64,000 nt of DNA from Salana multivorans (GTDB taxonomy: Bacteria > Actinomycetota > Actinomycetes > Actinomycetales > Beutenbergiaceae): assembly GCF_003751805.1 (NCBI RefSeq), contig NZ_RKHQ01000002.1, positions 496,001-560,000 of the forward strand, written 5' to 3'. Below, piece by piece: positions 43,469-49,182 of the stretch. Position 1 is the stretch's first letter, and the number at the start of each line of letters is the position of its first letter. A program made the translations under genes and the position numbers. Under the pieces are notes generated by a model that worked only from the letters and a program-made list of their open reading frames with translations, had not been told where the DNA came from and made no database searches.

Positions 43469-44311
43469 CTAGATCCGGGACGCGTGGATCTTGGTGACGA
43501 GGATCGCGCGCGCGCCCATCTCGTAGAGCTCGTCCATGACGCGGTGGCTCACGCGACGCGGCACCATCGTCCGGACGGCGGCCCAGCCGCTCTCGTGCAG
43601 CGGCGAGACGGTCGGCGACTCCAGCCCCGGCGCGACCTCAACGGCCCGCTCGAGCAGGTCGGCGGGGATGTTGTACTCCATGAGCACGTACTCGCGCGCG
43701 GTCAGGACGCCCTGGATGCGGCGGTCGAGGACGTCGAACCCGGGCCGCGGGTCGCCCAGCGGACGGATGAGCACGGCCTCGGACTCGAGCAGGACGTCGC
43801 CGAACGTCGACAGTCCGGCGGCCCGCAGCGTCGAGCCCGTCTCGACCACGTCGGCGACGGCGTCGGCGACGCCGAGCTGGACGGTCGACTCGATCGCTCC
43901 GTCGAGCCGGATGACGTCGGCCGCGACGCCGCGCTCGGCGAGGTACCGCTCGACCAGGACGCGGTAGGACGTCGCGATCCGCTTCCCCGCGAGGTCGGCG
44001 ACGCTGGAGATCGCGACCGACGGGGCAGCGAAGTGGAACCGCGACCGCGCGAAGCCGAGCGGTCGGTGCTCGATCGCCTCGACGCCGGAGTCGATGAGCA
44101 GGTCGCGGCCGGTGATCCCGGCGTCGACGGTGCCCGAACCGACGTACACGGCGATGTCGCGCGGACGCAGGAAGAAGAACTCGACGTCGTTGTCGGCGTC
44201 GACGAGGACGAGCTCGCGCCCCTCGCGGCGCTGCCGGTAGCCGGCCTCGGCGAGGATCTGGCACGCGGGGTCGGACAGGGAGCCCTTGTTGGGGACGGCG
44301 ATTCGCAGCAT
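43469..44311 (-). CDS. hisG: ATP phosphoribosyltransferase (long form)
   Basis: 280 residues, first enzyme of histidine synthesis, joining ATP and PRPP. The N-terminal MLRIAVPNKGSLSDPACQIL fixes the start at 44311. The PRPP loop is E-T-G-S-T-L-R-A-A-G-L (VVETGSTLRAAGL), and the C-terminal domain PTVSPLHESGWAAVRTMV is the histidine-sensing regulatory domain of the long type, so no HisZ is needed. An open frame extends 24 codons upstream without conservation. hisE lies 68 bp upstream on the same strand. Confidence 0.96.
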   Translation of the reverse strand: MLRIAVPNKGSLSDPACQILAEAGYRQRREGRELVLVDADNDVEFFFLRPRDIAVYVGSGTVDAGITGRDLLIDSGVEAIEHRPLGFARSRFHFAAPSVAISSVADLAGKRIATSYRVLVERYLAERGVAADVIRLDGAIESTVQLGVADAVADVVETGSTLRAAGLSTFGDVLLESEAVLIRPLGDPRPGFDVLDRRIQGVLTAREYVLMEYNIPADLLERAVEVAPGLESPTVSPLHESGWAAVRTMVPRRVSHRVMDELYEMGARAILVTKIHASRI

Positions 44312-44379
44312 GGTCTCTTCAGATCGGGTCAGACAGGTGGGGTGAGGCAGGTCGGGGGCGGTGAGCTGCGCGTGCCGGC

Positions 44380-44643
44380 TCACAGGTGGCGGTAGACGTC
44401 CTCGAGGTCGAGTCCGGCCGCGATCATCATGACCTGCGCGTGGTACAGGAGCTGGGACAGCTCCTCGGCCGCGCGCTCGGGCCCCTCGTGCTCGGCGGCC
44501 ATCCAGGACTCCGCGGCCTCCTCCACCAGCTTCTTGCCGATGAAGTGGACGCCGGCGTCGAGCTCCTGGACCGTGCCCGATCCCTCCGGCCGCAGGGCGG
44601 CCTTCTCGCGCAGCTCGGCGAACAGGTCATCGAAGGTCTTCAC
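44380..44643 (-). CDS. hisE: phosphoribosyl-ATP pyrophosphatase
   Basis: 87 residues of all-alpha MazG-like fold: [20 protein letters not shown] and [18 protein letters not shown], with the conserved E-E-x2-E and E-x2-D-like metal sites, ending DLEDVYRHL. It converts PR-ATP to PR-AMP, the second histidine step, just before hisG as in most actinobacteria. It starts with GTG at 44643; TAGACT (44657 to 44652 on the minus strand) ends 8 nt upstream. The promoter sits in the 22-bp gap behind the transporter operon. Confidence 0.95.
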
Positions 44644-44665: not shown

Positions 44666-45712
44666 TCATTCGGGCGGGTTGACGTAGCCGTTCTCCGGGA
44701 TGCTCTCGATCATCCCGGCGTCCACCATGGCGCGCGCCATGGACTGCCAGCGCGCCGGATCGGTCAGGCCGTCGTGGCCGTAGAGCTTCGTCGTGGCCGT
44801 GATGACGGCGAGCGCGTCCTTCTTCGCGGCCGAGGTCATGCCGGGGATGTAGGTGGCGGCCAGCTCGACGGCGGCCTCCGGGTCGGCGGTGACGGCGGCG
44901 GCGCCCTGCATCGTCGCGTCGCGGAACGCCGCGAGCTGCTCCGGCGTGAGGGCCGTGTCCTGCGGGGCAGCGATGCCGATGCTCACGAGGTTGCCGACCG
45001 GGAAGACCGTGACCTCGACGCCGGCGTCCGCCAGCCGGATCGCGTCCGAGGTGGAGAAGCCCACGACGGCGTCCACCTGGTGCGTCACGAGCGCCGTCAC
45101 CTGCGTGTAGCCGATGCTCTTGACGGTGATGTCGTCGAGCGTGAGGCCGGCGTCGGAGAGCAGGATCTGCAGGGCGAGCCAGGTCGAGCCGAACTCCCCC
45201 GGGATGCCGACCGTCGCGCCGGCGACCGACTCGAGCGAGCTGACGCGCCCCCCGGTCGGCGCGAGCAGCGCCTGCGGCGACTGCGCGTAGACCGTCGCGA
45301 CCTGCTGGAGGTTGCTGCCCCCGGCGCGGCTCATCAGGACCTCGTCCCCGCTGGCGACGACGAGGTCCTCCTCGCCCGCCTCGAGCGCGGTGAACAGGCC
45401 CTCGTTGACGCCGTGGTGGCGCAGCGTGACGTCGAAGCCGGCGTCCGCGTAGTACCCGTTCGCCACGGCCGTGTAGAACGGCGCGAACTGGACGTCGGGG
45501 ACGTACGTCAGCCCGAGCACGACGGGGACGAGGTCGTCTGGGGCGCGGGAGGAGCCCTCCGACGAGCCGGCCGAGCCGGTCGGCGATCCGTCGGACGACG
45601 GCGGGGTCGGCGCCCCGACGGTCGCGCAGGCGGTCAGCGCAGCGAGCGCCGCGACGACGGCGAGTCCGCGCAACGGGCGGAGCTGGCGGGGGCGGTGGGT
45701 GGTGCGTGCCAT
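44666..45712 (-). CDS. ribY: substrate-binding lipoprotein, NMT1/THI5-like (probable RibY, riboflavin)
   Basis: 348 residues. A lipoprotein signal ends L-T-A-C with the lipid-bearing Cys at residue 29, followed by a Ser/Gly linker and the NMT1/THI5-like domain: [39 protein letters not shown] and [21 protein letters not shown]. This family is often annotated for thiamine precursors. The operon here starts with an FMN riboswitch, which points to riboflavin, as in RibXY systems. GAGAGGA lies 7 nt before the ATG. The permease gene is 30 bp upstream; no ATPase gene is nearby. Confidence 0.85.
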
Positions 45713-45742
45713 GGATGGGTCCTCTCGGGTGGGACGCGTCGG

Positions 45743-46555
45743 TCAGGCCTGGGTGAGCCGCCGAGCACGGTGCTCGGCGAGGCGGACGAGGAAGTAGCCG
45801 GCGGCGGAGACCCCACCGATGACCACGAGGGTGGCGAACATGCCGGCCGTGTCGGTGCGGTCGCGCTGCGCGACGAGGAGCTGGCCGAGGCCGTGCCCGC
45901 CGAGGACGAACTCGCCGACGATCGCGCCCGTCATGGCGAGCGCGACGCCGGCGCGCAGGCCGGCGAGCGTCTCCGGCGCCGCGAGCGGGATCTCGAGGTG
46001 GCGCAGGAGCTGCCACGTCCCGGCGCCGTCGACGCGCGCGGCCCCGATGACGTCCGGGTCGAGCGAGCGCAGGCCGAGCGTCGTGGCGATGACGACGGGG
46101 AAGAACACGATGACGGCGGCGAGCAGCGCCGTCGTCCCGTTGCCGTACCCGAACCAGAGGGCCAGCAGCGGCGCGATCGCGATGGCCGGGATGGCCTGCG
46201 AGATCGCGACGTAGGGCTCGACGGCGGCGGCCGCCGCCCGCGAGTGGACGATGATCCAGGCGAGCGGGAGCGCGACGACGACGGCGATGCCGATGCCCCA
46301 GAGCGCGACGCCGGCGGTCGCCAGCGTCGCTGGCCACAGGTCGCCCGTCGCGGCCAGCTCGCGCAGCGCCGCGACGACCGCTCCCGGGGACGGCAGGAGC
46401 GTGCGGCCGAGCCGGCCGGAGCCCCAGGTCCACAGGAGCAGGAGGGCGACGGCGAGGACGAGCGCGGGCAGGAGGGTCGTCGCGATGCGTGTGGCTCGGC
46501 GCGGAGCGCCGGCGCGCGCGCCAGCACGGGGTGGGGCCGTGGTCAGCCGCGTCAT
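45743..46555 (-). CDS. ribX: ABC transporter permease (probable RibX, riboflavin)
   Basis: 270 residues with about six transmembrane helices. The EAA loop that contacts the ATPase is D-V-I-G-A-A-R-V-D-G-A-G-T-W-Q-L-L-R-H (ending with the conserved G and LP-like region), as in SsuC/TauC/ThiX permeases. It is the first gene after the FMN riboswitch, followed by the binding protein. GGAGG sits 4-5 nt before the ATG at 46555. The ATPase must be supplied from elsewhere in the genome. Confidence 0.88.
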   Translation of the reverse strand: MTRLTTAPPRAGARAGAPRRATRIATTLLPALVLAVALLLLWTWGSGRLGRTLLPSPGAVVAALRELAATGDLWPATLATAGVALWGIGIAVVVALPLAWIIVHSRAAAAAVEPYVAISQAIPAIAIAPLLALWFGYGNGTTALLAAVIVFFPVVIATTLGLRSLDPDVIGAARVDGAGTWQLLRHLEIPLAAPETLAGLRAGVALAMTGAIVGEFVLGGHGLGQLLVAQRDRTDTAGMFATLVVIGGVSAAGYFLVRLAEHRARRLTQA

Positions 46556-46598
46556 CTCGCCTCCCGGTCGCGTCGTCGCGTTCCGGGGTGGTCGAGCA

Positions 46599-46626
46599 GC
46601 GTGGTGGTGCGGGCGCACCACCACGC
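46599..46626 (-). promoter_or_regulatory. perfect hairpin between FMN aptamer and permease RBS
   Basis: GCGTGGTGGTGCG-GG-CGCACCACCACGC: a 13-bp perfect stem (about 12 bp allowing a 4-nt loop). It lies after the aptamer and about 45 nt before the permease ATG. A weaker GC hairpin (about 46629-46651) precedes it. It is likely part of the expression platform, as a T-less terminator; the pairing switch is inferred. Confidence 0.6.
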
Positions 46627-46654
46627 AGGGGGCGCGAGAGCGCTCCCCCGTGCT

Positions 46655-46785
46655 TCCTCCCATCCGGACTTTCACCGTCGGTCCTGGAGTTCCACCAGGT
46701 CAACCGCCACCGAGGCCGGACGAACCGGCCACGGCTGCGGGTCGCGGACTGTCACCGCCGGCTCGGACTTTCACCGACCCCGGAG
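46655..46785 (-). ncRNA. FMN riboswitch (RFN element)
   Basis: On the minus strand the conserved RFN blocks occur in order: GGTCGGTGAAAGTCCGAGCC, GGCGGTGACAGTCCGCGA, a variable arm, GTTGACCTGGTGGAACTCC, AGGACCGACGGTGAAAGTCC and GGATGGGAGGAAG. These are the hallmarks of the aptamer that binds flavin mononucleotide. A TAGGCT hexamer at 46806 to 46801 is the likely -10, starting RNA about 9 nt before the aptamer. High FMN should switch off the downstream ABC transporter genes. Confidence 0.95.
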
Positions 46786-46893
46786 CACGTGTGTGGTCAC
46801 AGCCTAGTCGAACGGGTGGAGGTTGCGTGGCGATCGTGCGCGACGGGGAGCGCGGCCATGGACACCGCGGGCGGCCACGCCAGGGTGGGAGGC

Positions 46894-47472
46894 ATGACGA
46901 CGGAGCACGGAGACGTCCCCCTGCCGGCGCACCCGGTGGCCGAGCTGCCGCCCGGGACCGCCGATGCCGTGCCGGTGCGCGCGCCGGTCGATGCACCCCG
47001 CCTGGGCCGCGTCGTCCTTCACGCGCTGTGGGTCGGCGTCGTGGCGGTGGCGGTGCTCGGCGTCGTCCGGTTCACCGTGGAGGACGCGAACCCCGTCGAC
47101 GGACAGCTGATCCTCAACTCCCTGGCCGCGGTCGTGGTCACCATCTTGATCTGGGGCGTGCCCGCCCTGATCTGGGCTGGCGTCGTCGGGGTCGTGACCT
47201 GGTGCGTGCTGGTCGGGGCCGCGCCGCTGGCCCGGTGGTCGCGGATCCTGACCGCCGGCATCGTTGGCGCCGCGACGGGAGGACTGCTGCGGCTGGTCTC
47301 GCAGCCGGTGGACCTCGTGGTGTACGGGCTCGGTCTGCTCGACGGCGGAGCCGGCCTGCTCGCCGGCGTCGGGCTGGCCGCGGTCACGGCCGCGCTGACG
47401 GCGGCCCTGGTGACGCGGACCTGCCGGCCGCGCCGACGCCGTCGACGGGGCCCCGCGTCCTCGCCGAGCTAG
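46894..47472 (+). CDS. hypothetical membrane protein, 192 aa
   Basis: Not recognised. About 38 Pro/Ala/Val-rich cytoplasmic residues are followed by four or five transmembrane helices and a strongly basic C-terminus ([14 protein letters not shown]). A GGGTGGGAGG purine stretch lies just before the ATG at 46894. The frame is open further upstream through the riboswitch region without coding character, so this ATG is preferred. It is divergent from the FMN-riboswitch operon and convergent with rpe, sharing four bases at the stops. Confidence 0.75.
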
Positions 47473-48146
47473 TGCCGGTGCGCCCGCGCGTGACCGGCCT
47501 CGGCGAGCTCGCGCAGGCGCGCGATGGCCCCGGCCGGGTCCTCCGCGCGGAACACGGCGGTCCCGGCGACGAACGTGTCGGCACCGGCCTCGGCGGCCCG
47601 CTCGATGGTGTCCGGGTTGATCCCGCCGTCGACCTGGATCCGGATGTCGAGGTCGCGGTCGGCGATGGCGCGGCGGGCGCGGCGGATCTTGTCCAGCATG
47701 GGATCGATGAACGACTGCCCGCCGAACCCGGGCTCGACCGTCATGACGAGGAGCATGTCCAGCTCCGGGAGCACCGGGAGGTAGGCGTCGAGCTCGGTCG
47801 TCGGCTTGAGCGCCATGGCCGAGCGGGCGCCCAGCCGGCGCAGCTCGCGCGCCAGCCGGATCGGCGCGCTCGCCGCCTCGGCGTGGAACGTGACGCTCTG
47901 CGCACCCGCCTCGGCGTAGGCGGGCGCCCAGCGATCGGGGTCGGTGATCATGAGATGGATGTCGAGCGGCACCGGCGTGATCGGCACGAGCGCCTCGACC
48001 ACCGGCAGTCCCCAGGTGAGGTTGGGCACGAAGTGGTTGTCCATGACGTCGACGTGCGCCCAGTCCGCCGTGGCGATGAGATCGAGCTGCGCGCGCAGGT
48101 CGGACACGTCGGAGTTGAGGATGCTCGGAGTGATGCGGATACCCAC
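47469..48146 (-). CDS. rpe: ribulose-phosphate 3-epimerase
   Basis: 225 residues, TIM barrel. Motifs: [13 protein letters not shown], the metal-binding [37 protein letters not shown] and the phosphate-binding VDGGI and AGTAVF. It interconverts ribulose- and xylulose-5-phosphate in the pentose phosphate pathway. TAGGGT on the minus strand (48158 to 48153) ends 6 nt before the GTG. In many actinobacteria rpe follows rsmB directly; here a terpene-cyclase-like gene on the other strand is inserted between them. Confidence 0.96.
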
Positions 48147-48201: not shown

Positions 48202-49182
48202 ATGGACCCCGAGGTGCGTGACTGGCTGCTCGACACCGACCCGGCGCTGCGCTGGCAGGTCGAGCGCGACCTGCTGGACGAGCCCGAGCCCGTGTGGCGT
48301 GCCACCCGAGAGCTCATGGCGACCGAGGGCATGGCCGCCCGGCTGCTCCGGCTGCAGGACCCCGACGGTCAGTGGGCCGGCGGCGCGTTCTTCCCCACCC
48401 GGCGCGATCCCCGCGCGCTCGTCACGCCGGGCGACGAGGACCAGCCCCTGTGCCAGCCGTGGACGGCCACGACCTGGACGCTCGCGACGCTGCGCGAGTG
48501 GGGGCTGGACGCGGCACTCCTCGCCGGCACGGCCGAGAAGCTGACGACCGTCCGGTGGGAGTACGACGACCTGCCCTACTGGGGCGGTGAGGTCGATGCC
48601 TGCATCAATGCCAAGACCCTCGCCACGGGCGCCTGGCTCGGCGCGGACATCGAGCCGATCGTCACCTGGTTCCTCGAGCACCAGCTCCCCGACGGCGGGT
48701 GGAACTGCGAGTGGGTCGAGGGCTCGACGCGCTCGTCGTTCCACTCCACGATCAACTCCCTCGCCGGGATCCTCTGGTGGGAGCAGCACACGGGCCGGGA
48801 CGACCTGCGGGACGCGCGCCACCGCGCCGAGGAGTACCTGCTGGAGCGCCGGCTGATGTACCGGCTGTCCTCGGGCGAGCCGGTCGGGCCGTGGGTCAGG
48901 CTGCTGCACTATCCGTTCCGCGCCGTGTACTCCTCGCTCCGCGCGCTCGACCACCTGCGTCGGGCCTCGGCGACCGACGGCGCGCCACCCGACCCGCGCG
49001 CGGCCGAGGCGGTCGAGGTGCTCCGCTCCCAGCGGCACGAGGACGGTCGGTGGTACCAGGGCTACCGGCTGCCAGGTGAGCGCTGGTTCGAGATCGACGT
49101 CCCGGTGGGTGAGCCCTCCCCCTGGCTCACGCTCCACGCCCTGCGGGTGCTGCGCTGGTGGGACGCGGGGCAGCGCTCCTAG
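48202..49182 (+). CDS. terpenoid cyclase/prenyltransferase-like (alpha-alpha toroid) protein
   Basis: 326 residues. Repeats of the squalene-cyclase type QW motif can be seen: LQDPDGQWAGG, HQLPDGGWNCEW and RHEDGRWYQGY, separated by helices as in alpha-alpha toroids. The catalytic DXDD of squalene-hopene cyclases is not present, so this is not a true cyclase; the family is of unknown function. TACCGT at 48190-48195 ends 6 nt before the ATG at 48202; a GTG at 48184 is also in frame. It overlaps the rsmB stop by four bases, convergent. Confidence 0.8.
   Translation: MDPEVRDWLLDTDPALRWQVERDLLDEPEPVWRATRELMATEGMAARLLRLQDPDGQWAGGAFFPTRRDPRALVTPGDEDQPLCQPWTATTWTLATLREWGLDAALLAGTAEKLTTVRWEYDDLPYWGGEVDACINAKTLATGAWLGADIEPIVTWFLEHQLPDGGWNCEWVEGSTRSSFHSTINSLAGILWWEQHTGRDDLRDARHRAEEYLLERRLMYRLSSGEPVGPWVRLLHYPFRAVYSSLRALDHLRRASATDGAPPDPRAAEAVEVLRSQRHEDGRWYQGYRLPGERWFEIDVPVGEPSPWLTLHALRVLRWWDAGQRS

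Follow-up and report, generated by a model that had tools for sequence, protein, structure and literature searches.

The ribXY operon of Salana multivorans very probably encodes a riboflavin importer of the RibXY type. The operon follows an FMN riboswitch and occupies a chromosomal slot that in other families belongs to the riboflavin biosynthesis operon. It lies in a stretch of 64,000 nucleotides (the window), and the features are listed in Table 1. The riboswitch, the gene families, the missing biosynthesis genes and the synteny were computed directly; riboflavin as the ligand, its transport by the host proteins, the translational switching and the use of MsiK are what we infer. An earlier reading based on the sequence alone holds up in all its principal claims. 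The RibXY family itself is already known. Added here are the slot shared with the biosynthesis operon and the hypothesis that the importer might be driven by the ATPase MsiK.

Table 1. Features of the ribXY locus and of its flanks (window positions)
Feature	Position	Strand	Evidence or remark
FMN riboswitch aptamer (RFN element)	46648..46790	-	RF00050, 84.2 bits, E 1.1e-17, full model
Strong GC hairpin, 12 pairs, loop of 4	46599..46626	-	minimum-energy fold
Hairpin over ribX Shine-Dalgarno, probable translational off-switch	46563..46588	-	leader fold
ribX Shine-Dalgarno GGGAGG	46560..46565	-	four bases before ATG at 46555
ribX, ABC permease	45743..46555	-	PF00528 E 6.3e-27
ribY, NMT1-type putative flavin-binding lipoprotein	44666..45712	-	PF09084 NMT1 E 1.1e-33
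rpe, slot flank (context)	47469..48146	-	PF00834; conserved synteny
hisE, slot flank (context, not importer)	44380..44643	-	PF01503; conserved synteny
hisG, slot flank (context)	43469..44314	-	PF01634, PF08029; conserved synteny

The operon starts with a BPD permease (COG0600-like), which is followed by an NMT1-type binding protein (COG0715-like). No NCBIfam equivalog was found above the cut-off for RibX or RibY; therefore, homology alone leaves the pair as sulfonate-, nitrate- or thiamine-precursor-like. RibX shares 42-74% sequence identity with other actinobacterial RibX proteins and was placed in one tree with RibX of Chloroflexi. Its coupling loop is AARVDGAGTWQLLRHLEIP, which is of the CUT1-like DGA form. 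RibY has the lipobox LTAC and the signature PDVQFAPFY, a motif common to RibY of all three phyla (Actinobacteria, Chloroflexi and Deinococcota). It is the sole NMT1 protein encoded by the genome, and thus not one paralogue among many. The solved structures nearest to the AlphaFold2 model of RibY (mean pLDDT 86.8) are 3ix1 (formyl-aminopyrimidine-binding), 4nmy (thiamin-binding) and Thi5, at 15-19% identity, which agrees with an earlier reading of the sequence alone that homology would suggest thiamine-precursor transport. RibY shares 27-44% identity with RibY proteins from riboswitch-bearing loci of Chloroflexi other than C. aurantiacus. At these identities, the ligand is inherited from the family, the riboswitch and the genome context.

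The RibXY of Chloroflexus aurantiacus (Caur_0816-0817; PMC3766115, PMC4418817) likewise combines the riboswitch, a permease and an NMT1-type protein in one operon. It also has no ATPase gene in the operon, a trait that is usual in the family but not universal. Transport has been shown for the C. aurantiacus pair, which rescued a ribB mutant of E. coli when riboflavin was low (PMC4418817). The RibXY label of the sequence-only reading was right and is that of a family already described. RibXY has been reported in Actinobacteria both with and without riboflavin biosynthesis (PMC4418817). The host operon differs from that of C. aurantiacus in its position, since it lies in the slot elsewhere held by the biosynthesis operon. 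In the proposed mechanism, the RibY lipoprotein outside the membrane would bind riboflavin or another flavin and pass it to a RibX dimer; the imported riboflavin would then be converted to FMN and FAD by RibF inside the cell.

The riboswitch was detected by cmscan with a score well above the cut-off (66.2 bits), and was the sole RNA family detected in the 64 kb window at the gathering threshold. The sequence-only reading had described a complete RFN element, to be checked by a covariance-model search; the positive search (RF00050, 84.2 bits), with all 138 of 138 model positions aligned, confirmed it as complete, whereas the end assigned to it (46785) was 5 bases short. The complete genome (two contigs, 3.89 Mb) has one FMN riboswitch, that of ribXY. 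A scan of named genomes gave 49 RibY relatives from Actinobacteria, Chloroflexi and Deinococcota; the actinobacterial ones come from Georgenia, Oceanitalea, Peptidiphaga, other Actinomycetaceae and Ruaniaceae. Their loci were searched with a covariance model made from 26 FMN riboswitches of the order. In 43 of the 49 (including 2 loci at cut contig ends and 3 weak matches), an FMN riboswitch preceded ribX or ribY on the coding strand; one was also found in every ribXY locus of the host's own family that was fetched at length. These indicate that RibXY is a riboswitch-bound family and the host arrangement no local accident; a chance match is ruled out by the score and by the conservation in relatives. 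The tie of RibXY to the FMN riboswitch is already in the literature (PMC3766115, PMC4418817). The earlier argument from the riboswitch to a flavin ligand is supported by this link and by the absence of the biosynthesis genes.

The fold of the leader between the aptamer and ribX (92 bases) is much more stable than that of shuffled sequences (z -4.3 to -5.8). In its last hairpin, a CCCGG pairs with a CCGGG overlapping the Shine-Dalgarno site of ribX. The Shine-Dalgarno block is the most alike part of the leader in six genomes, and RNAalifold also placed a hairpin over it, with the lower stem broken in some of the six sequences. A translational off-switch therefore seems likelier than termination. 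When FMN is plentiful, the riboswitch of the ribXY transcript would bind it, and the hairpin covering the Shine-Dalgarno site would stop the translation of ribX; when FMN is scarce, the importer would be produced. Alternatively, the main effect of the riboswitch might be to terminate transcription at the strong 12-pair GC hairpin, which does lie between the aptamer and ribX. This is rather unlikely, because the sequence of that hairpin is not conserved in the relatives, whereas the Shine-Dalgarno block is, and because a terminator search of the ribX leader gave no match; on the latter result, a transcription terminator in the leader was set aside.

No match to RibB (DHBP synthase), RibE (riboflavin synthase) or RibH (lumazine synthase) was found in the complete two-contig genome, and the RibF kinase/FAD synthetase is present. 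Of the 14 control genomes, all gave matches to RibH and RibB and 11 gave a match to RibE, and the same searches were also positive in sister genomes. With these three enzymes absent and RibF kept, a flavin importer is needed. The host is thus a predicted riboflavin auxotroph living on import, and RibXY is probably its vitamin B2 supply. In family f1, each genome without RibH still has ribXY with the riboswitch. In the host family, nearly all RibH-containing genomes have two FMN riboswitches (at the biosynthesis operon and at ribXY), and the genomes without RibH have a single one, at ribXY. On the RibX tree, the RibH-less genomes of the family occupy three or more separate positions. For example, G012 is RibH-less inside a genus whose two other members have RibH. 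If the RibX tree matches the species tree, biosynthesis was probably lost repeatedly where RibXY was present. Riboflavin auxotrophy is predicted for a group of actinobacteria, and the genes on which they would depend are named.

An apparently intact RibE with two lumazine-binding domains is encoded in G007 (C1:2026530-2027063) and in G012 (C11:164994-165536), both of which have no RibH or RibB. This lone RibE may be a remnant, or it may bind flavin or lumazine in some other function. In the small genome of the relative G026, also without RibH, an FMN riboswitch heads two genes (L164:8580-12017). One encodes a RibU-like membrane protein, the other a protein of 890 residues that is an apparent fusion of two ECF ATPases with an EcfT membrane part.

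The gene order in the window is fmt-rsmB-rpe-[RFN-ribX-ribY]-hisE-hisG. This order was kept in all members of the host family fetched at length and in G025. The same ribXY order was found in Georgenia, Oceanitalea, two Actinomycetaceae MAGs and Ruaniaceae; it deviates in G033 and Peptidiphaga. In three genomes from three other families of the order (G027, G028 and G037), the slot reads rpe-[ribE-ribB-ribH]-hisE-hisG, and their FMN riboswitch lies in the same stretch as these biosynthesis genes. Thus ribXY occupies the slot that in other families belongs to the riboflavin biosynthesis operon. Members of the host family that still have biosynthesis carry that operon elsewhere, outside the slot. 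The loss of biosynthesis, together with an importer in the slot of the operon, suggests that import took over as the regulated flavin supply. Close to the slot, two open frames in the other orientation, 46894-47472 (+) and 48202-49182 (+), have no match to Pfam or to the relatives' loci; the former begins just upstream of the riboswitch and heads away from it.

No ABC ATPase was found among the window frames beside ribXY. In the fetched flanks (up to 10 kb) of the actinobacterial ribXY relatives, none was found either except in G033, where an ABC ATPase about 3 kb from ribXY is not among the best RibZ-like ATPases of the genome. Many loci of Chloroflexi have a RibZ ATPase gene either after ribY or ahead of ribX. 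Meiothermus, Calidithermus, Truepera and Deinococcales have an ATPase-permease fusion close to the riboswitch-ribY unit, in most cases immediately ahead of it; this fusion of about 490 residues was seen beside the riboswitch and ribY at L112:7611-9791 and at L114, L122, L107, L144 and other Deinococcota loci. The ribY of some Deinococci was described as monocistronic, with a permease partner that was not known (PMC4418817); the fusion is likely to be this partner. The RibXYZ of Chloroflexi and the fusions of Deinococcota (L112, L114, L118 and others) thus share with the host a riboswitch-ribY unit and a related permease; however, they have their own ATPase adjacent or fused, and the host ribXY has none.

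Phylogenetic analysis placed RibZ, the fusions and the SsuB/TauB-type ATPases in one clade (99% SH-aLRT). In four genomes with ribXY (G011, G025, G033 and Peptidiphaga), the best RibZ-like ATPases examined were all outside the RibZ/SsuB clade, so another class of ATPase must serve at least there. In E. coli, C. aurantiacus ribXY was functional although no ATPase gene had been cloned with it (PMC4418817), suggesting that an ATPase can be borrowed by RibX. The sequence-only reading had proposed a shared ATPase encoded elsewhere; the loci without ATPase support this, with MsiK as the best candidate.

MsiK is a MalK-family ATPase that several sugar importers share (PMC4890002, PMC6167110), and it is the most likely, though tentative, motor of RibX. 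Without an ATPase of its own, RibX would use MsiK, and its coupling loop looks suited to this partner. The missing ATPase, the type of this loop and the presence of MsiK were also computed directly. All 27 RibX proteins of one clade (23 actinobacterial and 4 ktedonobacterial; 100% SH-aLRT) have the coupling (EAA) loop AA-x-x-[D/E]GA, with D in 25 and E in 2. The host loop is AARVDGA, in which the first E of EAA is G (A or D in the relatives). The RibX proteins with their own ATPase have RSLxA, TMGA or similar loops; the Chloroflexi RibX with an adjacent ATPase, for example, have RSLxA or similar, in contrast to the CUT1-type DGA of the host. Among 15 E. coli permeases, DG at the loop position was found only in MalF, MalG, UgpA, UgpE, YcjO and YcjP, with MalK/UgpC-type partners, and was absent in CysU, CysW, PotB, PotC, PotH, PotI, ThiP, SsuC and TauC. 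No DG loop was found in distinct SsuC-type permeases beside SsuB-type ATPases in the same genome group. In its DGA, though not in the first residue of EAA, the host loop resembles that of MalF/MalG/UgpA/UgpE. The MsiK-dependent CUT1 importers, such as CebE/MsiK (PMC4890002), also have no ATPase in the operon; unlike these sugar importers, the host RibXY combines an SsuC-type permease with an NMT1 binding protein.

Full-length MsiK orthologues (66-91% identity) were found in 15 of 15 further ribXY genomes (16 of 16 with the host), including all four without a RibZ/SsuB-class ATPase. In the host genome, the msiK RNA motif RF01747 lies directly before msiK (L148:3253-4439). Because MsiK is widespread in Actinobacteria, finding it has little discriminating value. 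On the RibX tree, the DGA loop has a single origin; thus its tie to the missing ATPase is one event and no correlation. The sister RibX proteins of Thermomicrobiales have no ATPase nearby either, yet their loop is YGA/FGA and not DGA. The actinobacterial-ktedonobacterial lineage of RibX may have dropped its SsuB/RibZ-class ATPase, rebuilt the loop to the CUT1 form and now run on MsiK, a history with somewhat less than an even chance of being right. A literature search on MsiK and riboflavin found no link between the two. MsiK offers a concrete candidate for the open question of which ATPase drives a RibXY transporter without its own. If it is correct, vitamin B2 uptake would be tied to the sugar-import motor in riboflavin auxotrophs. 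Moreover, permeases could switch between ATPase families by exchanging a few coupling-loop residues, and this loop might likewise be used to assign other importers that lack an ATPase.

The motor of the importer might instead be an SsuB/TauB-class ATPase from another locus, here the one at C1:1621024. RibXY of Chloroflexi uses an ATPase of the RibZ class, which in Deinococcota occurs as a fusion with the permease, and this protein is the single ATPase of the class in the host genome (239.8 bits to the RibZ profile; about 175 or less for the others). The C1:1621024 ATPase and the permease beside it (an SsuB/SsuC-like pair, L146:7525-9131) first looked attractive, since no binding protein lies beside the pair and RibY is the sole NMT1 protein. 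However, a dedicated binding lipoprotein of about 390 residues lies near the pair in all relatives fetched and 23 kb away in the host (G000:C1:1644816-1645976). The ATPase thus has a permease and a binding protein of its own and is part of a different transporter. Many ribXY genomes lack a close orthologue of it, and in G011, G025, G033 and Peptidiphaga the class is absent altogether. An SsuB-class motor is thus unlikely, and this pair was rejected as the partner of ribXY because of the distant lipoprotein and because the pair is absent from many ribXY genomes. No solved relative of the binding protein was found.

It is highly improbable that ribXY imports a thiamine precursor of the HMP type, with the FMN riboswitch having merely come with the locus. 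The NMT1/THI5 family membership, the nearest solved structures, which bind thiamine precursors, and the slot, which holds the riboflavin operon in other families, would fit this. The fold and the overall plan of ThiXYZ/ThiY (3ix1) are also as in the host RibXY; however, the host operon is controlled by an FMN instead of a TPP riboswitch. The His of ThiY and Thi5 (H17 in 3ix1, H18 in Thi5) is replaced in the host protein by Phe-76 of the PDVQFAPFY motif, a residue invariant in 28 RibY proteins; this fits a changed ligand without naming it. Thiamine precursors as the substrate were rejected because the link of riboswitch and genes spans three phyla, and because of Phe-76, the lost biosynthesis (RibB, RibE and RibH) and a separate thiBPQ-type importer locus with its own TPP riboswitch. 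Riboflavin import by RibXY thus remains the preferred reading. The thiBPQ-type thiamine importer follows its riboswitch at L146:770-4639 in the host genome, and several relatives have conserved these importer genes close to the SsuB-like pair.
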